A DNA stretch of 64,000 bases from assembly GCA_039930045.1 (NCBI GenBank), contig JBDSQB010000002.1, positions 450,286-514,285 of the forward strand. The letters run 5' to 3'. The stretch's first letter is position 1, and each line of letters opens with the position of its first letter. The notes below the pieces were generated by a model, which saw nothing but the letters and a program-made list of their open reading frames with translations, ran no database searches and was not told the origin of the DNA. This stretch comes from Chthoniobacterales bacterium. GTDB lineage: Bacteria; Verrucomicrobiota; Verrucomicrobiia; Chthoniobacterales; DASVRZ01. This document shows, one piece after another, positions 47,118-60,210 of the stretch. The position numbers and the translations under genes were made by a program.

Positions 47118-48919
47118 ACCGGACTCTCTTTTTTCTTCGTGCTCTGGATGTAAATCTCGCGAAGCAGCTTCGGCTCGACTTCCACCGGACTCTGCGTCAT
47201 GAGGTCGGTGCCGCGATTGTTTTTGGGGAACGCGATCACGTCGCGAATGCTCGACGCGCCCACGGCCAGCATCACGAAACGGTCGAGTCCCAATGCAATG
47301 CCACCGTGAGGGGGCGCGCCAAAACTGAACGCTCGCAGCAAGTGCGCAAACTTCAATTCCTGCTCCTCGGGCGTGACGCCGAGCACGCCAAACATCTTCG
47401 CCTGCAAATCCTTCTCATGGATGCGGATCGAGCCGCCGCCGAGTTCCACTCCATTCAGCACCACATCGTAGGCGATGGCGCGGACTTTGCCGTATTCGCC
47501 CGCCTCCAGCAGCGCGATGTCCTCCGCCTTCGGACGCGTGAATGGGTGATGCACTGCGACCCATTTGTTGTCCTCGGGCGAGAACGCCAGCAGCGGGAAA
47601 TCCACCACCCAGAGGAAATTTAGCGGCGCGTCGGCAGGGACGAGTTTCATCAGATCGGCGACGCGCAAACGCACGCGGCCCAGCACTTCGCAGACCGCCT
47701 CCCACTTCAAATCCGCTCCGAAAAAGAGCACGTCGCCGTCCTCAAACTGCATCCGCGCCGCCAGCGCCGCCTTCTCCTCCTCGGAGAAAAATTTCACAAT
47801 CGGCGACTCCCAGTTGCCGTCCTTCAGTCGAATGTAAGCCAGCCCTTTTGCGCCAAATTCCGTCTTCACCCACTCCTCCCATTTCTTGAGCTGCTCCTTG
47901 CTCAGCGCCTCGGCCGCACCCTTCGCATTGAGCGCCTTGATCGTCCCCTGCCCGTCCACGATGGAGCGGAAAACCTTGAACTGCGATGCGTGAAAAATAT
48001 CCACCAAATCCACCAGCTCGACGCCGAAACGCAGGTCGGGCTTGTCGGAGCCGAAGCGGTTCATCGCGTCGGCATACGTGATGCGCGGGAACGGCGTCGA
48101 GACTTCCACTCCTTTCGCCTCGCGGAAAACGCGGGCCAGCATTCCCTCGGTCAGCGTCTGAATGTCTTCCTCGCCGACGAACGATGCCTCGATGTCGATC
48201 TGGGTGAATTCCGGCTGACGATCCGCGCGCAAATCTTCGTCGCGGAAACAGCGGGCGATCTGGAAATATTTCTCCAGCCCGGCCACTTGCAGGAGTTGTT
48301 TGTATTGCTGCGGCGCCTGCGGCAGCGCGTAAAACGAACCCGGAGTGAGCCGCGACGGAACGAGAAAATCGCGCGCACCTTCGGGAGTCGGGTTCGATAA
48401 AATGGGGGTCTCGATCTCCAGAAAACCAGCCTCATCGAGGTAATCGCGGGTCGCCTTCACGATGCGATGGCGCAGTTTCAGGTTTTCCTGCATGTGGCGC
48501 GTGCGCAGGTCGAGGTAGCGATATTCCAGGCGGAGATCCTCGTTCACCTTCGGGTCGTCGAGCGGAAATGGCGGCACATCGGCCTTGTTCAGCACGGTCA
48601 ATTCCGCCGCCACGAGTTCGATGGAACCCGTGTCCAGACGCGTGTTTTCCGTTCCACTCAGACGCGCGGCGACTTTGCCTGAAACTTGAATGACATCCTC
48701 TCCGCGCAACGCATGGGATTGCTCGGCGATGGCCGGAAATTCCTCGGGGCGAAACACGACCTGAGTCAGCCCATCGCGATCCCGCAGATCGATAAAAATG
48801 ACGCCACCATGGTCACGCCGCGAATTCACCCAACCGGCAAGGGTCACGGTCTGGCCGATCTGTTCCGGGCGCAAAGCCTGGCAGGAGTGGGTGCGATATT
48901 TCTGGCTGTTCTGACTCAT
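47114..48919 (-). CDS. aspS: Aspartyl-tRNA synthetase
   Basis: Class II synthetase, 601 residues, normal bacterial length with the GAD insertion. Motif 2 is FRDEDLRADRQPEFTQID; motif 3 is IALGLDRFVMLAVGASSIRD; the N-terminal OB fold is GWVNSRRDHGGVIFIDLRDR. ATG at 48919 (MSQNSQ) is chosen. The 5' flank holds one copy of the 21-base repeat. Confidence 0.97.
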   Translation of the reverse strand: MSQNSQKYRTHSCQALRPEQIGQTVTLAGWVNSRRDHGGVIFIDLRDRDGLTQVVFRPEEFPAIAEQSHALRGEDVIQVSGKVAARLSGTENTRLDTGSIELVAAELTVLNKADVPPFPLDDPKVNEDLRLEYRYLDLRTRHMQENLKLRHRIVKATRDYLDEAGFLEIETPILSNPTPEGARDFLVPSRLTPGSFYALPQAPQQYKQLLQVAGLEKYFQIARCFRDEDLRADRQPEFTQIDIEASFVGEEDIQTLTEGMLARVFREAKGVEVSTPFPRITYADAMNRFGSDKPDLRFGVELVDLVDIFHASQFKVFRSIVDGQGTIKALNAKGAAEALSKEQLKKWEEWVKTEFGAKGLAYIRLKDGNWESPIVKFFSEEEKAALAARMQFEDGDVLFFGADLKWEAVCEVLGRVRLRVADLMKLVPADAPLNFLWVVDFPLLAFSPEDNKWVAVHHPFTRPKAEDIALLEAGEYGKVRAIAYDVVLNGVELGGGSIRIHEKDLQAKMFGVLGVTPEEQELKFAHLLRAFSFGAPPHGGIALGLDRFVMLAVGASSIRDVIAFPKNNRGTDLMTQSPVEVEPKLLREIYIQSTKKKESPV

Positions 48920-48954
48920 AAGGACGGGCACCATAGCAAAAAACCCGGTGAATC

Positions 48955-48975
48955 AAAGAACGCATTCACGTTTCC
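48955..48975. repeat. 21-base direct repeat, copy 1
   Basis: The sequence beginning AAAGAACGCATTCACG and ending TTTCC is identical at 49755-49775, exactly 800 bases away. It is in the upstream region of aspS. On the minus strand it is the ETxxx-GNVNAFF-coding part of the 42-base repeat unit found in the array at 49743. Confidence 0.85.
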
Positions 48976-49086
48976 CCTAGAGCATGTTTCCACTTGGACA
49001 GCAGCCCAGCCAAAGTCGGACACAGCAATAGATTTCCTACTTTTAATCTCTTGACGGACACAGCTAAAATATAGGACTTGTAGGCC

Positions 49087-49374
49087 ATGAGCATAAAAAC
49101 GAAAGCAGATACCATTCGTTTTACCACCAAGGGGCAGGTCGTCATTCCCAGTTGGCTGCGCAAGGAGTTCCAAATTGAGGACGGCACCCGTGCCATTGTC
49201 ACCGCCACCGAGGAGGGAATTTTGCTCAAACCCGTCACCAAACGCTCCATTGCGCGGCTGCATGGCATCTTAAAACCCAATTCTGGCGATCCCTCATTTG
49301 CAGAAGAGTGGTCTGCACACAAGCGCGATGAAAAAACCTTGGAAGACGCGGATCATGGCCTTCACGATACTTGA
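49087..49374 (+). CDS. AbrB/MazE-type antitoxin of a PIN toxin pair
   Basis: 95 residues. The N-terminal swapped-hairpin domain IRFTTKGQVVIPSWLRKEF (about residues 10-28) is AbrB/SpoVT-like DNA-binding; the C-terminal half (FAEEWSAHKRDEKTLED) is likely to wrap the toxin. It ends 20 bases inside the PIN toxin gene. Autoregulation through sites before 49087 is usual; none was identified. Confidence 0.88.
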   Translation: MSIKTKADTIRFTTKGQVVIPSWLRKEFQIEDGTRAIVTATEEGILLKPVTKRSIARLHGILKPNSGDPSFAEEWSAHKRDEKTLEDADHGLHDT

Positions 49375-49756
49375 TTCTCACGCCCTGCTGACGCTGCTCC
49401 GGAGTGAGGCGGGTTCTGATATCGTGCGGGCTTTGCTGGAAAAGGCTGCTGAAAAGGACATCCCGCTGCATATGACGGAAGTGAACTACGCCGAGGTGCA
49501 AACCATCGTTCGGCGCAAGGCAGGGAATGCCCTCTGGAAGACCATCGCCGATGAGTTGACCGCCGCTCCCATCCAGTTTCATCCCGTGGATAGAAAACTG
49601 GCCGACCTGGCGGCCGACTTCAAAACCCGTTTCCGGCTCTCGCTCGCCGATGCCTGTGCCGCCGCCCTGGCCAAAGAGAAGAAAGGCCAGCTCGTCACGG
49701 GCGATCCGGAGTTCCAGGCTCTTGAAAAGGAAATCGGGATTACTTGGTTGAAATAA
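49355..49756 (+). CDS. vapC: VapC-type PIN-domain ribonuclease toxin
   Basis: 133 residues from ATG at 49355. PIN acidic residues: Asp in TILDSHALL, Glu in TEVNYAEV, Asp in LSLADACAAALA and Asp in TGDPEF. VapC toxins cut specific tRNAs or rRNA; the antitoxin here is AbrB-like. Its end touches the second copy of the 21-base repeat. Confidence 0.9.
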   Translation: MAFTILDSHALLTLLRSEAGSDIVRALLEKAAEKDIPLHMTEVNYAEVQTIVRRKAGNALWKTIADELTAAPIQFHPVDRKLADLAADFKTRFRLSLADACAAALAKEKKGQLVTGDPEFQALEKEIGITWLK

Positions 49757-49994
49757 AGAACGCATTCACGTTTCCGGGGAACCGCGTTTCGGGCTTGGAG
49801 AACCCCCGCACTCCCGGCAATAGCCCCATTCCCGCAGTCAGGAATGGAGGTATTCCAGCCGGAAAGCCCAATCCCGGGGTCGGGAATGGGGTTATTTTCT
49901 GGAGGGTGGCCGTTTCCGTGGTCGGAAATGAATGTATTGGCGAGAGGGTGACGGTTTCGGGCTCGGTTTGGACAGAAATCGGCCTGGAAATGTC
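49743..49994. repeat. Phase-locked 42-base imperfect tandem repeat array (about six units)
   Basis: Unit starts that can be aligned lie exactly 42 bases apart: 49785 (CGTTTCGGG), 49827 (CATTCCCG), 49869 (CAATCCCG), 49911 (CGTTTCCG), 49953 (GGTTTCGG); a further unit precedes at 49743. Three units carry a short hairpin whose arms change together (ATTCC/GGAAT, TCCC/GGGA, TTTCC/GGAAA). 42 is 14 codons, and the minus strand is open across the array (to 50006), giving 14-residue repeats such as ETVTLSPIHSFPTT and ETATLQKITPFPTP. Sequence from 50007 to 50115 holds nothing recognised. Confidence 0.8.
49755..49775. repeat. 21-base direct repeat, copy 2
   Basis: Identical to 48955-48975. It lies just past the vapC stop and forms part of the first unit of the 42-base array. 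The two copies bracket the toxin-antitoxin pair. Confidence 0.85.
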
Positions 49995-50115
49995 CAAATC
50001 GCGCACAATGAGGCTGGAACGGCGTTTTGTGCCTCTTTTTGCCTGAGCCCCGCCTCCATGCCCGAGACAGATGAGCGGGTTGGCTCATTTGACTGGCTGG
50101 GCGAACTCTCTTCCC

Positions 50116-50796
50116 CTACGGCTTCCAAGTTTCCGGTTTGTCGAAATCGGCCGGGGTGAGGTTTTCCAAGCGGCGACGGTCGGCAATGGGGAGTTCGCCG
50201 AGGAGCTGTTCGCGCTGTTCCTGCCAGTTGCGGAGGGTTTTGCCAAAGTCGGCCCGGGCTTTCGGCGGGAGTACGGCCCACCATTCCGGCGAGCGCGATT
50301 CGTAGTAGAGGGCCAGGGCGATGCTGCGGTAGAGCAGGCGGCGTTGCAGCTCGGCCATATGCGCCGTTCCCACCAGGCCCATTTCCTGAAACTCCTCGCC
50401 AGGTGACTGGCCGCGACTCATTTTTTCCAGCGCGGCATCTTTCGCGGTCTCCAGATCGAGTGCCGTCTGAAGGGCATCGGGCCGGGCGTCGTCACGGAGC
50501 TGTTGGATTATGCCCTCGATGGCTTCGAGAGCGTTTGGAATCTCGGCGACGGCAGCCACGGCGGCGGCTTGGCGCATGAGGGACTCGTGCTCGGCGACCT
50601 CCTCCGCATACTGGCTGAAGCGCCGGATGAGCGCCGAGACATCGACCTCTTCCTCCAGCCGACCCTCACTGAGGGCGATGAGCTGATCGCACGCCTCCAG
50701 AAAATCGGCAGGGTCGAGGCCATTCTCGGCGAGGTTGGCGGCGATGGGTCGAATGGCGTCGCTCAGTTCGCGCACCCGCCGGATTAAGTCTTCCAT
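50116..50796 (-). CDS. Helical protein of unknown function
   Basis: 226 residues from ATG at 50796, chosen because GGAGG lies eight bases upstream; an ATG at 50823 lacks this. The product is acidic, Ala/Leu/Glu-rich and predicted almost wholly helical (LRDDARPDALQTALDLETAKDA type), ending in NLTPADFDKPETWKP. No family recognised. It follows the broken gene at 50842 and may be part of the same old operon. Confidence 0.6.
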   Translation of the reverse strand: MEDLIRRVRELSDAIRPIAANLAENGLDPADFLEACDQLIALSEGRLEEEVDVSALIRRFSQYAEEVAEHESLMRQAAAVAAVAEIPNALEAIEGIIQQLRDDARPDALQTALDLETAKDAALEKMSRGQSPGEEFQEMGLVGTAHMAELQRRLLYRSIALALYYESRSPEWWAVLPPKARADFGKTLRNWQEQREQLLGELPIADRRRLENLTPADFDKPETWKP

Positions 50797-50841
50797 CGGG
50801 TGATCCTCCATGACCCGCCGCATGTCTGCAAGCCAGGCCGG

Positions 50842-51446
50842 TTAGGGTGTCGGCGAGGCGGGCGCAGGCTGGTCGGTAACGTCCTCGGGAGTCTCGCCGG
50901 GATAAGACTTGAAACGGAATCCGAGCTTGCGCAGGAGCCGGCGCTGGCCGGGGTCGTCCTCGCGGCGGGCATGGTCGAGGGCGTCGAAACGAATCTCGCT
51001 CACCAGAAACAAGGCGCGCTCGTCCTGCGCATCGAGGAGGGTTTGCGCGGCCTGCACCGCCGAGTCGGCAGGGGCCACATCGGCATGTTCCTCCTGCGCG
51101 GCGGTAAGAGCGGACTGCAACTCGGCTGCGCTGGGATTGGCCATCGCGCCGTAGGCGGCGGTGGAGCTGGCGTCGCCTGCCACGAGTGCCTCGGCGACGC
51201 GCTTGAGATTGGGCCAGCCCTCCATGTTAGGAGTGTCGCCGGTGGAGTCGAGACCGTGATTCACTAACACGGCGACACATCATGTTTCTGGCGGCGCGTG
51301 CGGCGGCGAAGGACTTCGATGTAATCGCGGGTAAAGAGTTCGAGTGTGGCCTTGGCATCGTTGGATTCGCGCACTTCCCGAGAACGATTGCCGAGGGCGA
51401 GAGTGAGGCTGGCGACGAGCGGTTCGTAGAGTGCGATGAAACTCGG
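50842..51446 (-). pseudogene. Broken gene remnant, frameshifted and cut at its 5' end
   Basis: Two minus-strand segments read as one protein if a frameshift is allowed. Segment A (51446-51264) gives FIALYEPLVASLTLALGN, ...ELFTRDYIEVLRRRTRRQKHD and stops at TAG. Segment B (51270-50842, 142 residues) continues LVNHGLDSTGDTPNMEGW ... AMANPSAAELQSAL ... SEIRFDALDHARRED and ends normally. Segment A also has an in-frame TAG just upstream (51452-51450) and no start, exactly where the HNH gene begins on the other strand. This looks like the 5' part was lost when foreign DNA joined here. Segment B may still be translated from GTG. Function unknown. Confidence 0.55.
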
Positions 51447-52131
51447 AAGCTATTATCTAAAAAGTGATTCGCTCTGGTTGGCATTTAAAAATGACGGTGC
51501 AAGAGAACATCCATTAGAGCATCCACCCACAGTCTCGGAGGCCGTCTCAGGCGTCGTTTTTGCTCGCCTGGTAAATGGCTTCGAGCGATTCGTTGAAACT
51601 GTGGATGATCGTATGAAGCTGCGGTTAGCGATCATAGCCAGGTACTTTCCAAGTCAACTGGAGACACTTATATCTTTATTTACTGACCAGACTGCGCGGA
51701 GACCATCCCCGGTGTCACGTCTCTGCGAAGAAGGCCCAGAGGTCGCCGGCAGAAACCCTGCTTTCCGTCGCAAGGTGTTAGAGATATATGATTACCAGTG
51801 CGCAGCCTGCGGACTGCGAATCAAATTGCCCGACGCAGAGCTAACCTTCGTCGATGGTGCTCATCTTATGCCTTTTGCGGAGACTGGAAATGACCACCCG
51901 AGCAATGGAATAGCGCTGTGCAAGAATCACCATTGGGCCATGGATCGTTTTCTTCTCGTCCCGAACGTGGAGGGCCTATGGAAAGTATCCCCCCTCCTAG
52001 ATCGCCGACGCTCTCCCGGCGAAAACGCTTTGATGCAGCTGGATGGTGAACCACTATTGCCGCCGCACGACGATGCATTTCTACCAGCAAAGGCGAGTCT
52101 GCTTTGGCGGTTTGAGAGAATGTTGAGTTAA
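51436..52131 (+). CDS. HNH endonuclease domain protein, probably 5'-truncated
   Basis: 231 residues. The C-terminal HNH zinc/metal domain is clear: VLEIYDYQCAACGLRIKL, DGAHLMPFAE, HPSNGIALCKNHHWAMDR. The N-terminal part (FARLVNGFERFVETVDDRMK region) is short for restriction-type HNH proteins, which usually have about 60-70 more residues before the segment resembling SYYLKSDSLW. The ATG at 51436 lies inside the remnant gene on the other strand, so the first codons come from the junction. It is 31 bases upstream of jetA and could be a remnant of a restriction system or an accessory nuclease. Confidence 0.75.
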   Translation: MKLGSYYLKSDSLWLAFKNDGAREHPLEHPPTVSEAVSGVVFARLVNGFERFVETVDDRMKLRLAIIARYFPSQLETLISLFTDQTARRPSPVSRLCEEGPEVAGRNPAFRRKVLEIYDYQCAACGLRIKLPDAELTFVDGAHLMPFAETGNDHPSNGIALCKNHHWAMDRFLLVPNVEGLWKVSPLLDRRRSPGENALMQLDGEPLLPPHDDAFLPAKASLLWRFERMLS

Positions 52132-52162
52132 GCTCCGACAATCACCCCACCAAATTCGATCT

Positions 52163-53344
52163 ATGTCGATCCACAAAGACAGTCTATTTCGTATATTTCA
52201 AACTGACTATCGCACGGCGCTTTGGCGATTTTTTGAAAATCGTCATGATCGAATTACGGGGGCTCTCGCCTCTGAATTTTGCGACCACGCTACGTTGGAG
52301 CATTTGCTAGGCATTGAGTTACTGCAATACGATGGCGCGAGTAACGAATACAGGCTGGATGATCGCATTGAGCGTTTCATCGAGGATATGCTGGGCGCTG
52401 CGGAGGTGGCACACGCGGACTGGCTCTCGTCGCTGCTCGACGATTTAAGGAAGTTGATTGATGGGTATAGTAAGCTGGCGCAGACAAGTAAGAGCGACAC
52501 TTTTTTCCGAGGTATCCTGCGATTTTTGCGAACTTGCGACAGCCGAGCACAGCGGCATCTGGAGGACATCAAGTCCACTGTAGACTTCGATTATCGGGCG
52601 GGGGCGGATTACGAAGTTAAGTTGTTAAAGCTTCAGTGGCATCTCGAACGCGCTCATAGTTACGGAGGGGCGATCGGAGAACTAGATGACTTGCTTAAGA
52701 ATCACGCTTTTTTTCAGCAGCAAGGGAATATCGAAATTCTTTCGCTTCGATCTCGATTGATCAGGCGTTGTGACCAAATCGGCAATGCATTGATCGATAT
52801 CTATCAGCAGATCGAACAGTATTTAAATCGCGTCATGCGCGATCACGAGCGAGCCAGAAAATTGATTCGCCTTCGTGGCTTAATCGAACGGCATGAACAT
52901 TTACCTGCAACGAATATTGAGGAGATTGCCGCAACGGCTGATGGGCCTTACTTTCGTGACTCTCGCCGGCACACTTTGCTGGCTCCGTCTGTTATCGATG
53001 AGCGTCCAGAACTATTCGAGCGCATGCTAGCGCGTGCTGGTCTGAAAAATGAGCCACGCACGAATCGACGTGTGGAGATACAGGAGCATCCCCTAGATGA
53101 AATGCCCCCCGTAATTGATTGGCAGGACGTTTTCGATAGCTTTTGCAAGCAGACCGACAATCTTTTTGTGTTCCTACGTAGTCTAAAGGTAGAGGGTAGG
53201 CTACTGACAGAAGAAGAAGTAATCGACGGCTTTTGCGCCATCCTTAGCAACGAGGATTGGACGGATGGCTGGAGCAACAAGCCGTTTGATCTCGCCATGA
53301 GCGATGGTTGGCAATATGCCGTGGTAACATCCGCAACCCGATGA
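52163..53344 (+). CDS. jetA: Wadjet JetA/MksF-like kleisin subunit
   Basis: 393 residues, helical, with an N-terminal winged-helix-like part (MSIHKDSLFRIFQTDYRTAL; ATLEHLLGIELLQYD) and a central coiled coil (about 195-245). By position and overlaps it is the kleisin that bridges the SMC heads of a JetABCD/MksFEBG complex. Type I JetA proteins are about 480 residues, so this is shorter. Two rows counted (52501, 52801) are 52 % and 48 % G+C. Assignment rests mainly on the neighbouring JetC and on order; sequence recognition alone is weak. Confidence 0.7.
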   Translation: MSIHKDSLFRIFQTDYRTALWRFFENRHDRITGALASEFCDHATLEHLLGIELLQYDGASNEYRLDDRIERFIEDMLGAAEVAHADWLSSLLDDLRKLIDGYSKLAQTSKSDTFFRGILRFLRTCDSRAQRHLEDIKSTVDFDYRAGADYEVKLLKLQWHLERAHSYGGAIGELDDLLKNHAFFQQQGNIEILSLRSRLIRRCDQIGNALIDIYQQIEQYLNRVMRDHERARKLIRLRGLIERHEHLPATNIEEIAATADGPYFRDSRRHTLLAPSVIDERPELFERMLARAGLKNEPRTNRRVEIQEHPLDEMPPVIDWQDVFDSFCKQTDNLFVFLRSLKVEGRLLTEEEVIDGFCAILSNEDWTDGWSNKPFDLAMSDGWQYAVVTSATR

Positions 53345-53925
53345 CTATCGAAACCCCACTCGTCGCTCGCCGTCTCTTTTCAAGGCTCTGTCGTGGAACA
53401 AATAGGTTACTCTCGGAAAATGGCCCGGACGACGATAAAGATTTGTATCGGCAGGTGCATGAACCCGATGTTGAAGCTGCCTGCCAAATATTTTTCGCCG
53501 TTATTGGATTTCGGCTGCAAAAGGGAGATGGCTGCTACTATTTCACTTCCGACGACGAGCCTCAGGCAAATATCGAATCTAAGCTCGAAAAGATGATTCG
53601 ATTGGTGGGATTGCTAAATTTTCTTTCCACACACATCGAACACTTTAGCGAAGGCGTGATATTTTCTGCCGCCACGTTAGCGACGAAATGCCACGGTGAT
53701 GCCAAGGCCGAACGGTTTCTTCAGGAGGCAGCAAAGGGTACAAATTTTGCAGACAGGATCACGAATCTGCTCCATTCGCTCGTTAGCCAAGGTTATCTCT
53801 CGGAATACGATCCGGCTCGGCAGGAATACCGAGTTCTCTCTGCGATCCACTATCTCTTTGAGTTTGCAGATCGAATTCAGATCTACGACACAGCCGAGAC
53901 AGGAGGGTCAATTGCCGAGGCTTGA
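53341..53925 (+). CDS. jetB: Wadjet JetB/MksE-like KITE subunit
   Basis: 194 residues from ATG at 53341, which overlaps the jetA stop as ATGA. Predicted tandem winged helices (EADVEAACQIFFAVIGF-like region; LLHSLVSQGYLSEYD) and size agree with the KITE dimer of MksE/DUF4194 type. The last residues GGSIAEA are encoded over AGGAGGGTCAA, which serves as ribosome site for jetC. Confidence 0.7.
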   Translation: MTIETPLVARRLFSRLCRGTNRLLSENGPDDDKDLYRQVHEPDVEAACQIFFAVIGFRLQKGDGCYYFTSDDEPQANIESKLEKMIRLVGLLNFLSTHIEHFSEGVIFSAATLATKCHGDAKAERFLQEAAKGTNFADRITNLLHSLVSQGYLSEYDPARQEYRVLSAIHYLFEFADRIQIYDTAETGGSIAEA

Positions 53926-56900
53926 ACGTATACGTCTCATCAATGCTGCGGGCTTCGATGAAGTGGATTTTCCAGTCAATGGCCATTGCCAGGTCATCGG
54001 CGTTAATGGCCATGGGAAGTCCACGCTGTTGCGCACGGTTTTGTTTTTCTACCTTGGCACAAACGAAAAGGCACCTTACGCGCTACACGATACGAAGAAA
54101 GATTTTGTCAGCCACTATCTCGGTGATCCGCCGGGTTATCTGATTTATGAAGTTGCGAGAGATGCAAGCCAGCCAGGCTACCACATTGCGGTAACACGTC
54201 CGGCGGGACGCATTCAGTTCCATTTCGTAGATGCGCCATTTCGGCGGGATTACTACGTTGACGGGAAGGTCGTGCTACCCATCGAGCGCGTGCAGGATCA
54301 ATGGCGTGATGCACGCTGTGCGGTAGAGACGCTCTGGTCCTACGAAGATTTTGCGCATCGCATCTATGGAATCGTGCCTTCAACCTACGCGGTGTTTCGT
54401 CCCGCTGAGCGTGGTGCCAGTCAGGTGAGCGTGCTACCGCGCATCATCAGCGGAATTTTCACCGTCAGCCAATTGGATGCGGACAAGTTGAAGTCCGCGC
54501 TGACCTGCGGTGTTCGGAGCGACGCCTCCGCAGCGGAGCTGGACTTGGTGCAGCTCAAGAATCAGCTGGAGCACTTTCGCCGTGTGAATCGAGCAGTTAA
54601 GACCTTCCTGCGACACGAGCAGGATGCCGTGAACCTCGTAGAGTTGGCGGCTTCGTTCGATATTGTGAAAGGAGACCGGCGACGCGCAATCGAAGGCTTG
54701 GTCCGCGCAGCCAAATTCTTGCCGGAAGAGGCGCGCTGGATCGAGGAACATATCGGTCTTCTGAAAGATGAGGAAGCCGAGGAGGAAGCCGAGTTTAAAT
54801 GTGGGAACCTCCAGTTGAGTGAGGCGATCCAAAAACGCGGCGAAGAAATTGCCGTGCTCGGTGCGAATATCAAAACGGCAAAAGAAATTTCCACCGAATA
54901 CGTGAATCGGGAGATTGAGCGAAAGGCAAAGGAATTGGACTCGCTACAGGAGCGCGAAGAAGAGCGACGACTGGCGGAACGCGAACATGCATCGCTCACC
55001 GCAGAATTTGTCGATGAGAATCAGCGCAAAGAGCAGTTGCTCGATAGCGTTCGCCTGAGTTGGTCGGAACTCACCAATGGCTTTCAAAAGCGGCGGTTCG
55101 AAAGCGGCGAGCGGTTCCGCTTTAAGTTCACAGAACTCGAAGCGGAAAAGGATTCCGCACGAACAAAGATCGCGCATGAACGCAACATTACCGTCAAGGC
55201 GGTCCAGCCGCGACGAGAGAAACTCAATCGTGAACGAACAGTTCTGAACGACGAGTTGAGAGCCTTCGCGGACATCGCGCCGCCGCGGGAGATCGCGGAA
55301 ACCGAAGGTGGCTTTCGGCAAGCCGAACGAAAACAGAATCAGGAGTCCGCACAGCAAGAGCGGTTTCGCAGCGAATTGGCGCTCGCGCGGCAGGAGGCGA
55401 AGATGGACCGAGAAAAACTCGATCGCGACGCTGCAGACGAGAAGGTGCGCATTGAGGCAGCAATCGCGAATCTGGATGGAGAGCGCAGCCGCACGACAGC
55501 GGAATTAGAGAAATTCGACACCTCACTGGCGCATTTTTTCCAGACACAGTCTCCGCACTCGTGGCAGGAGGCCGCGAAAACGTTGAACCACGAGCTTCTA
55601 TTCCGGAACGCGCACGAGCTGGAGGCGGAAGCCGTGTCTAACACCGATTGCGCGGTATGGGGCGTAAAGATTTCCACAACCAGCCTGGCAGACTCGACTG
55701 AAGCTTACGATCGCGCCCGCCTTACCACTGCCTTGCAAGAGTTGCGTAAGAAACTCGCTGGAGAGAATGAAGCGCTGAACTCAGCGCAGGCACGTTATGT
55801 CGCGGGATTCGATGCGCAAGAGAAACGCCATGCGCAGATCGTTGGTGAACTGGAAGGGAAGATTGCCGCCAGCGTGGAGGCGTGCGGCAAGCTCGGCAAC
55901 GAAGTCGTCCGGCTCGAAAACCATCTGCTTAATTTGCAAAGCCAGTTCAACGCTGCAAAGCTGCGCAGGCGCGAAGAGCTCGATATGCGGGAGGCTACGT
56001 GGAAGGCGGACGACGAAGTTCTGCGGAAGGAGGAAGGCGAAATCGAACAACGCTTCCGCTCTTTGCAAAGTGTAGCGGACGACGATTTCAAAGCAAGACG
56101 CGAAAAACTGACGGAAGCCGAAAATGCCTCACGAGCCGACATTGATCTCGACGAAAAAGCGGCTCGGCTAAAGCGAGATGCGGATGTGGTCCGCATTGAG
56201 CGAGAGTCACAACGGGCACTTTCGGAGAAAGGCGCGAACGCCGAGCGCATCGCCGCCGCTCAGAAGCGCTTTACGGATGCGGAAAAAAATGTTCACCGCA
56301 TTGAGGAGTATCGCGAGGAGGTCGCAGAATATCGGAAGAAAAAAATTGAATGGATGGATAGGCTGCCTGGGTGGGAATCCGAGCGCCCGGTAGCCGAGGA
56401 AATCCAGCGTGCGAAACAAACTTCGCTCGGGCAACTCGCCGAACGTAATCGCCTAGCTAAAGCCGCGCTGGCCGAACGCGCGAAGAAGCTGAATGATGCT
56501 AGCGGTGCGCTCCAGGAAGATCAAAAGGCGGTCGCACGTTTCCAAAAAGACATGCGCTTTCTCCAAGAGTGGGGCTATTTCGATCGCCCTGATCTCCCAC
56601 CGGCGTCGTTTCACCAGACGGGTTCTGTCGACGGTTTTCTCACTACTGCGGAGAACGCACACGAGAGCCTCGAATCAATCAGAAAGAAGGGAGATGACAG
56701 CGCGAAAAAATTTCTCGGCCATTTTGAAGAGGAGACACTCAAGCGAAAGCTGCTCGGCTTTTCCCCACCCCACGAGAACTTCGATTGGTTTCAGTTTGTC
56801 GGTGGCGAACTCAAGCCTTTCGTCAACAACCGTGCGATTACGGGAATGAAGCGCCTGCAGACGCAGCAGTTCGAGCAACTCATCCATAACATTTGCAGCA

Positions 56901-57586
56901 AAAACGCCGCGTTCCGCGATGGCATCCGTCAGGTAAATCAGACGGCGGATTCTGTGCAGGCGCACCTCGTGAAAAACAACTTCGTTGATGTGCTCGACTC
57001 AGTCGAACTCAAGGTCGAGCGAGTGGACAATCAACTCACCCGGACGCTTGAGGGCTTGGAAAGATTCGCCGGGATCTCCTTCAGCCAAGAGAACGATCTC
57101 TTTGCCAAACGAGCAGACAGCGCAGAGATCGACCGGGCCATCGAGCATTTTGAGCGATTACTCCGTGAGATCGACACCCATCGCAGCAAGCAGCTTTCGC
57201 TCACCGACTACTTCGACTTTTTGATTCGCATCTACGAAAACGGCCACGATATGGGCTGGCGAAAATCACTCGATCACATTGGTTCCACCGGCACGGACTA
57301 CTTGGTGAAAATGCTCATCTACCTGTCTCTTATAGAAGTTTACCGCTCTCGTGCCATCGACGCGAAAGCAGAGTCCACCGTCCATTGCGTGATGGATGAA
57401 ACAGGTGTGCTTGCGCCGAAATACGTTCGCGCCGTGCTTGCTTACGCTGCGGAGCGCGGCATTATTTTGATCACCGCTGGCCACTCGCAGCAGACGACGG
57501 GATTCGACCACTGGATACTCGTTCGCAAACAAGGTCCGCGATTTGGCGGGCAGACAGTGCTTCGTAAAGTCCTGCGATGCGACTAA
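53912..57586 (+). CDS. jetC: Wadjet JetC/MksB-like SMC ATPase
   Basis: 1,224 residues from TTG at 53912. AGGAGG ends five bases before it and no ATG precedes the ATPase core. Walker A is GVNGHGKSTLL (about residue 30-40), a MukB-like short hinge region lies near ELEAEAVSNTDCAVWGVKI (about 555-575), long coiled coils flank it, the signature is IGSTGTDYLVKMLIYLSL and Walker B is VHCVMDETGVL, followed by ITAGHSQ. This is the motor of a loop-extruding condensin. It overlaps jetB by 14 and jetD by 10 bases. Confidence 0.87.
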   Translation: MPRLERIRLINAAGFDEVDFPVNGHCQVIGVNGHGKSTLLRTVLFFYLGTNEKAPYALHDTKKDFVSHYLGDPPGYLIYEVARDASQPGYHIAVTRPAGRIQFHFVDAPFRRDYYVDGKVVLPIERVQDQWRDARCAVETLWSYEDFAHRIYGIVPSTYAVFRPAERGASQVSVLPRIISGIFTVSQLDADKLKSALTCGVRSDASAAELDLVQLKNQLEHFRRVNRAVKTFLRHEQDAVNLVELAASFDIVKGDRRRAIEGLVRAAKFLPEEARWIEEHIGLLKDEEAEEEAEFKCGNLQLSEAIQKRGEEIAVLGANIKTAKEISTEYVNREIERKAKELDSLQEREEERRLAEREHASLTAEFVDENQRKEQLLDSVRLSWSELTNGFQKRRFESGERFRFKFTELEAEKDSARTKIAHERNITVKAVQPRREKLNRERTVLNDELRAFADIAPPREIAETEGGFRQAERKQNQESAQQERFRSELALARQEAKMDREKLDRDAADEKVRIEAAIANLDGERSRTTAELEKFDTSLAHFFQTQSPHSWQEAAKTLNHELLFRNAHELEAEAVSNTDCAVWGVKISTTSLADSTEAYDRARLTTALQELRKKLAGENEALNSAQARYVAGFDAQEKRHAQIVGELEGKIAASVEACGKLGNEVVRLENHLLNLQSQFNAAKLRRREELDMREATWKADDEVLRKEEGEIEQRFRSLQSVADDDFKARREKLTEAENASRADIDLDEKAARLKRDADVVRIERESQRALSEKGANAERIAAAQKRFTDAEKNVHRIEEYREEVAEYRKKKIEWMDRLPGWESERPVAEEIQRAKQTSLGQLAERNRLAKAALAERAKKLNDASGALQEDQKAVARFQKDMRFLQEWGYFDRPDLPPASFHQTGSVDGFLTTAENAHESLESIRKKGDDSAKKFLGHFEEETLKRKLLGFSPPHENFDWFQFVGGELKPFVNNRAITGMKRLQTQQFEQLIHNICSKNAAFRDGIRQVNQTADSVQAHLVKNNFVDVLDSVELKVERVDNQLTRTLEGLERFAGISFSQENDLFAKRADSAEIDRAIEHFERLLREIDTHRSKQLSLTDYFDFLIRIYENGHDMGWRKSLDHIGSTGTDYLVKMLIYLSLIEVYRSRAIDAKAESTVHCVMDETGVLAPKYVRAVLAYAAERGIILITAGHSQQTTGFDHWILVRKQGPRFGGQTVLRKVLRCD

Positions 57587-58413
57587 CTACTGCCCAAGCT
57601 GCCCAACTCGCACACCTCGCCAAGGGCGGCTCCTTACAGCGGAGCCGCGTGGCAAAAGCTCTCCTGCCACTCCTCGAAAATGCGGGTGTAGTACGCACGG
57701 AGAAATCAGGATCTAGCTCTCTTATGCGCGGAGTTCCTGGAAAGATAGAAGCGTTCGCCGAGCACTATTGGGGCATTCGCGACTTGTCTCGCTTTGCGCT
57801 TGCCACCCCCGGCAACAGAAGTCGCGAATCGCTGGCTGAGATTGCTGGCGATTCCAAGGCACTGCCGAGTAATCCCTTAGCGGGGATCTTCATTCGCTCC
57901 TTCGGTAATTGCACTCTCGGTGATCAGCCACTGATGCACACGCCCCTTGGCAGCGCGATTCTAATCTCTCCAGCACAACTACCGTATCTGAGAGTTACAG
58001 CACGCACATTAATTGTAATAGAAAACTCAGAATGCCTTTTGAAGTTTGAGAAGGTGCTTCCTTATTTTACTGATGTAGATCGCGCAAATATTGCGCTCGT
58101 TCTGCGATGGAATTGGAGAACGGCCTGGCAAGAATGGCTGCATGAATGGACGGGTAAGGTCGTTCATTTTCCTGATTATGACCAAGCGGGTTTACGCATC
58201 TTTGCGACAGAAGTTTTGCCCCACGCCCCGGAAGCTCGCCTACTTATCCCCTCTAATCTCGAAGCGATCCTAAATGAACGAGGGAGTCGCAATCTATTCC
58301 TCCGCCAGGAACATCTCTCGATGCTTGAGGCGAAGCATCCCGACATCGCACAAGTGAATGTCTTGATTCAGACTACTCGTAAAGCACTCGAACAGGAGAC
58401 GCTGTTGCATTAA
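57577..58413 (+). CDS. jetD: Wadjet JetD/MksG-like Toprim nuclease, short form
   Basis: 278 residues. An N-terminal winged-helix-like part (TTAQAAQLAHLAKGG, KALLPLLENAGVV) precedes a Toprim core: Glu in LIVIENSECLLKFEKV and the DxD-type acids in HFPDYDQAGLRIF. In JetD the comparable motifs are ENxxxL and GDxDxxG; here Pro replaces the first Gly. JetD cuts DNA held by the JetABC motor. Type I/II JetD proteins are about 390 residues, so this lacks about 110, presumably from the N-terminal arm. It ends the operon. Confidence 0.78.
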   Translation: MRLTTAQAAQLAHLAKGGSLQRSRVAKALLPLLENAGVVRTEKSGSSSLMRGVPGKIEAFAEHYWGIRDLSRFALATPGNRSRESLAEIAGDSKALPSNPLAGIFIRSFGNCTLGDQPLMHTPLGSAILISPAQLPYLRVTARTLIVIENSECLLKFEKVLPYFTDVDRANIALVLRWNWRTAWQEWLHEWTGKVVHFPDYDQAGLRIFATEVLPHAPEARLLIPSNLEAILNERGSRNLFLRQEHLSMLEAKHPDIAQVNVLIQTTRKALEQETLLH

Positions 58414-58460
58414 CTCAAGCTCTTCAGGCAAACTTTGGCAATCGGCGAAACGTTTTTTCG

Positions 58461-58498
58461 CAAACAAAACAGCCGGACCCCTTTCGGAATCCGGCTGT
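58461..58498 (-). terminator. Rho-independent terminator of groEL
   Basis: Perfect nine-base-pair stem ACAGCCGGA (58469-58477) with TCCGGCTGT (58490-58498). On the minus strand it is followed by TTTGTTTG. It lies between jetD and groEL, which converge. Confidence 0.85.
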
Positions 58499-58530
58499 GT
58501 TTGAGTTTTGGTTAGTCGAGGGAGCCGGAC

Positions 58531-60210
<1,680 letters not shown>

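Follow-up and report, generated by a model that had tools for sequence, protein, structure and literature searches.

The sulphur cavity of ScoMcrA is made up of residues H116, R117, Y164, P165 and A168, and the shift with phosphorothioated DNA was abolished by the P165N replacement and by the change of R117 to A or G (PMC6224610). The gene fragment described here encodes a protein that aligns over 221 residues, through its HNH part and the latter half of a sulphur-binding domain (SBD), with the SBD-HNH type IV enzymes to which ScoMcrA and SprMcrA belong (family model NF045808). Its full-length relatives carry the SBD fold with an invariant PHK motif and an invariant proline, whereas the protein itself lacks the first ~83 residues, which include the pocket. 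The operon that follows the fragment shares with the Wadjet/MksBEFG plasmid-defence systems the gene order A-B-C-D, an MksE protein, a DUF3584 ATPase, a JetD-like C-terminal domain and an invariant E and DxD in the nuclease, although it is too divergent to give good sequence matches with PADLOC models or PDB chains. The site at which the fragment meets its left-hand neighbour has no notable difference from the ordinary deletion joints and pseudogene pairs of accessory regions, in which two truncated genes are fused, one of them frameshifted, beside defence genes of patchy distribution. The window, i.e. the whole stretch of DNA that was analyzed, comprises 64,000 nucleotides of a Chthoniobacterales genome, and all coordinates given below refer to it unless another locus is named.

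Results

The meeting point of the two truncated genes is surrounded by the following features.

50116-50823, minus strand: neighbour of the leftward pseudogene; intact, 235 residues, without family match
50842-51276, minus strand: 3' piece of the leftward pseudogene; frame -2, equivalent to paralogue residues 99-239, separated from the 5' piece by the frameshift near 51274
51273-51443, minus strand: 5' piece of the same pseudogene; frame -3, equivalent to paralogue residues 44-100, E 2.5e-8 when taken alone
51443-51454, no strand: joint; leftward homology stops at 51443, and homology to full-length HNH proteins starts at 51451-51454 (tblastn with the paralogue L012 and with P0002/P0003)
51436-52131, plus strand: predicted SBD-HNH restriction endonuclease gene fragment, 231 residues; HNH intact, first half of the SBD missing

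The leftward gene has an intact paralogue of 239 residues, counted from the first ATG, in the same genome (L012, on G000:C3). Compared with this paralogue, the copy in the window lacks the first 43 codons and carries, in addition, the frameshift near 51274; residues 99-239 of L012 align to 51276-50860 in frame -2, and both pieces together reached an Expect(2) of 7e-30 (tblastn). Two genomes from the order contain other relatives, and all three intact relatives reach further at the N-terminus. The window copy is thus a pseudogene. An earlier reading of the window, made from the sequence only, had noticed that the minus-strand frame is lost at a TAG within 16 bases of the HNH start codon, and that this codon lies inside the leftward remnant. 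Both observations hold. The TAG that closes the frame of the remnant occupies 51452-51450, and the ATG of the HNH open reading frame, at 51436, lies within sequence that stems from the leftward gene, whose homology extends up to 51443. A start of the HNH gene further upstream is impossible, since a TAG at 51427-51429 immediately precedes its frame, which opens at 51430. The proposal that both genes are cut at their 5' ends at one spot was borne out by tblastn, in which the homology of both genes breaks off within the same 10 bases. The fall in G+C noted to the right, from about 60% to about 50%, was also recovered, with 64.7% at 51000-51400 and 50.2% at 51400-51800 (400-base windows), and this composition step (65% to 50%) coincides with the joint.

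In the 231-residue protein, the Pfam domain HNH_2 was recognized with an E value of 2.3e-9 (37.4 bits; cut-off, 21), and model NF045808 matched residues 7-227 from its position 73 of 284 onwards (1.5e-20). With 73.5 bits, the latter match does not reach the family cut-off of 180, and neither do two full-length relatives, which score 71 and 90 bits. Most relatives from Verrucomicrobiota, among them full-length ones, are ~42-52% identical to the fragment. When bacterial and archaeal genomes were scanned, 80 loci with HNH homologues emerged, mostly from Verrucomicrobiota, and in 73 of the 77 loci that have a complete upstream frame at least 60 residues were found upstream of the first HNH residue of the window (median, 77). 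The match with two full-length relatives (P0002 and P0003) begins at their residues 85 and 78, which correspond to 51454 and 51451, respectively (tblastn), and with respect to 36 aligned full-length relatives the window gene is devoid of ~83 residues. Homologues therefore end at the place of the cut for neither gene, and the N-termini that the sequence-only reading had expected to be missing amount to 43 residues in the leftward protein and to ~83 in the HNH protein.

Residues P30, H31, K32 and P82, which are invariant in the 36 full-length homologues, are all located upstream of the cut. By their register, P30/H31/K32 and P82 would fit H116, R/K117 and P165 of the ScoMcrA pocket, the position of R117 being occupied by lysine in most homologues. 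A full-length relative matched the SBD of 8h0l by sequence over residues 27-93, and the 15 best PDB matches of its predicted structure were all SBD-containing chains, with 8h0l, 7ccd and 5zmo on top. For the truncated protein, the structure comparison gave HNH-type modification-dependent enzymes as the best matches (TagI, E 2e-3), and SBDs appeared only at E values of 5-6. A complete sulphur-binding domain with the pocket residues (His, Arg/Lys and Pro) is absent from the fragment. These comparisons indicate that the part that was lost is the N-terminal half of the SBD together with the phosphorothioate pocket, and that the gene encodes, as predicted by homology, an SBD-HNH type IV restriction enzyme without its front part. 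Since the residues that hold the sulphur are gone, the predicted protein should no longer recognise its substrate, and the HNH gene has most likely lost its function and become a pseudogene in the recent past. Its open frame and well-conserved domain would also fit a retained function; the HNH and zinc residues are conserved, and the HNH part shows three departures at 49 columns conserved at 90% or more, a number equalled or exceeded in 3 of 50 homologues. The idea that the SBD-HNH enzyme had to be lost because the genome carries a dnd phosphorothioation system was rejected, since no DndC was found there.

The genes to the right of the fragment, and the terminator that bounds the block, are the following.

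52163-53344, plus strand: jetA-like gene (MksF/MukF position), 393 residues; operon position and L152 homologue (E 7e-59)
53341-53925, plus strand: jetB-like gene (MksE); Pfam MksE PF21980, 4.3e-20
53912-57586, plus strand: jetC-like gene (MksB/SMC-like ATPase); Pfam DUF3584, 3e-34
57577-58413, plus strand: jetD-like gene (MksG), nuclease; Pfam DUF7281, 1.2e-10, and JetD_C, 0.004, below cut-off
58469-58498, minus strand: groEL intrinsic terminator, a 13-pair stem followed by a T-rich tail; right bound of the block

The order A-B-C-D and the matches listed above identify these four genes as a putative, intact Wadjet/MksBEFG-like operon, in which jetA was assigned by position and homology only, its product having no convincing match among the library profiles. 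The jetC product is 35% identical to those of L146/L152 over its whole length. Conserved nuclease and ATPase residues are present in the operon; E149, D200 and D202 of the JetD-like protein are invariant in seven sequences, and we take them to be catalytic, as in the JetD/MksG Toprim-like nucleases. PDB sequence searches with the Jet proteins returned nothing useful. Related Jet operons, with the same gene order around jetC, were located at six other loci of the phylum. Across the phylum, jetC was detected in 7 of 388 genomes, this one included, and among 96 relatives of the order it gave a single weak match. The GC3 values of the HNH gene (0.50), jetA (0.52), jetD (0.50) and jetC (0.62) are low when compared with 0.69 +/- 0.05 for the other genes of the window, which supports a foreign origin, and such an origin of the right side is plausible. 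A viral origin was rejected, because viral contigs contained no jetC relatives, only weak HNH matches and no copy of the joint sequence string; the plasmid records contained only distant jetC relatives.

Around the closest relative of the operon (L152, 1-16001), apparent defence genes for an AAA-type ATPase and restriction-like proteins were observed by eye. Some related Jet operons have an extra gene, which separates jetB from jetC in one case (L154:5540-6358) and from a short jetA-like frame in another (L153:4767-5171); judging by motif, its product is presumably a KilA-N-like protein in L154 and a GxxExxY-like protein in L153.

The distance between the HNH fragment and jetA is 31 bases. This closeness, together with the open frame and the conserved HNH and zinc residues, is what could be expected if the 231-residue protein were functional as it is, either as a PT-independent nuclease or as a helper of the Wadjet operon. 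However, Jet genes were found at none of the 80 HNH homologue loci, and such an HNH gene was found beside none of the six other Jet operons, for which reason the HNH gene was rejected as a Wadjet component; moreover, half of a compact domain is gone. A protein that is functional as it stands is thus very unlikely, a working SBD-less nuclease that has been enlisted as a partner of the neighbouring Wadjet-like operon is scarcely credible, and the adjacency of HNH and Jet genes looks accidental.

The fate of the two missing halves was then sought in the whole genome (99.9% complete, 0.77% contamination). The front half of the leftward gene was found neither in the window, the 58414-58530 gap included, nor elsewhere in the genome, in which the full paralogue was readily detected (E 7.5e-116), and the HNH front half was equally absent from the genome (best match, E 0.68). 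Relocation of the halves by inversion or translocation was accordingly rejected, and the absence of both from the genome argues that they were lost and not moved. At the right edge, 55 bases separate the end of jetD (58413) from the groEL terminator.

The sequence-only reading had taken the joint as an insertion junction and as the left edge of a horizontally acquired defence island. The defence operon on the right, its rarity in relatives and the composition step agree with an acquired island, but position 51450 need not be its edge. The gene at 50116-50823 is present in one other genome among 94 of the order, and the leftward gene is also rare in relatives, so that the accessory region may start nearer aspS than 51450. 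As for the hallmarks of island integration, no tRNA or flanking direct repeats bounding the block were found, no recombinase was seen among its genes, and Rfam gave no match in 48900-58600. The groEL surroundings of 20 relatives from other families of the order revealed no empty site, as dnaK-groES-groEL alone is conserved in them.

Discussion

The joint is probably the scar of one deletion. Before that event, the leftward gene (~240 residues) and an SBD-HNH type IV gene (~310 residues) would have formed a divergent, head-to-head pair, with the low-G+C Wadjet/MksBEFG-like operon located downstream of the ancestral full-length HNH gene. Because the two genes are divergent and both have lost their starts, one deletion suffices, and the absence of both front halves from the right edge and from the genome points to a deletion rather than to an insertion. 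A single illegitimate deletion would have removed both gene starts and the DNA between them, that is, at least ~129 + 250 bp (about 370 bp) plus the intergenic region. It would have left 231 open HNH codons, with an ATG supplied by chance, antisense, by the leftward remnant, and would not have damaged the Wadjet-like operon. The truncations, the missing halves, the composition step and the intact operon were observed directly; that one deletion was at work, its size and its timing are our inference, as is the loss of function. The deletion may have taken place after the arrival of the low-G+C block or as part of that arrival.

The composition step at the joint is also what one would expect had the block come in with an already damaged left end and taken the place of native DNA. 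In that case, the Wadjet operon and a broken HNH gene would have reached the chromosome on a linear foreign fragment, which by recombination replaced the native DNA from inside the leftward gene to the groEL terminator, and the joint would be the left edge of the acquired island, as in the sequence-only reading. The sharpness of the G+C step, the low GC3 of HNH, jetA, jetC and jetD, and the scarcity of jetC in the phylum and the order are in agreement with such a replacement. It requires, however, that the HNH end was broken and that, on the right, native DNA was lost in a second event; the ends of the block show no tRNA or repeats, and the genes on the left, being rare in relatives too, do not clearly represent the native side. 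Replacement is therefore a possible origin of the joint, but a rather doubtful one.

An assembly chimera, in which unrelated stretches were joined at 51450, might be suspected in a draft of 23 contigs that shows an abrupt change of composition. Nevertheless, the joint lies well within a 644-kb contig, the completeness of the assembly is high and its contamination low, the leftward gene has a separate frameshift, as a real pseudogene would, and the sole groEL of the genome sits just to the right of the block, all of which make a chimera improbable. Finally, a simple insertion of an island into the leftward gene with both halves kept would fit the abrupt meeting of the two genes. It leaves the HNH truncation unexplained and, barring a later deletion of the other half, is contradicted for this genome, in which that half is present neither in the 55 bases at the right edge nor anywhere else, so that it deserves almost no credence.

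If the joint is, as we favour, a deletion scar, the locus offers a small, clean example of how a restriction gene is lost in a defence region, the recognition half disappearing at once and the nuclease half remaining open for a time; it is otherwise an ordinary genome scar. For annotation, the HNH open reading frame should be named neither a Wadjet component nor a working restriction enzyme.

Further to the left, two 27-nt direct repeats (48949-48975 and 49749-49775), identical at 25 of 27 positions, enclose a MazE-like antitoxin/PIN toxin pair (49087-49374 and 49358-49756). This arrangement, with a 21-nt repeat core of which the genome has no other copy, suggests that the toxin-antitoxin stretch 48949-49775 is a small inserted module. 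Between this pair and the next genes, an imperfect inverted repeat with 47-nt arms, 70% complementary, extends over 49801-49914.
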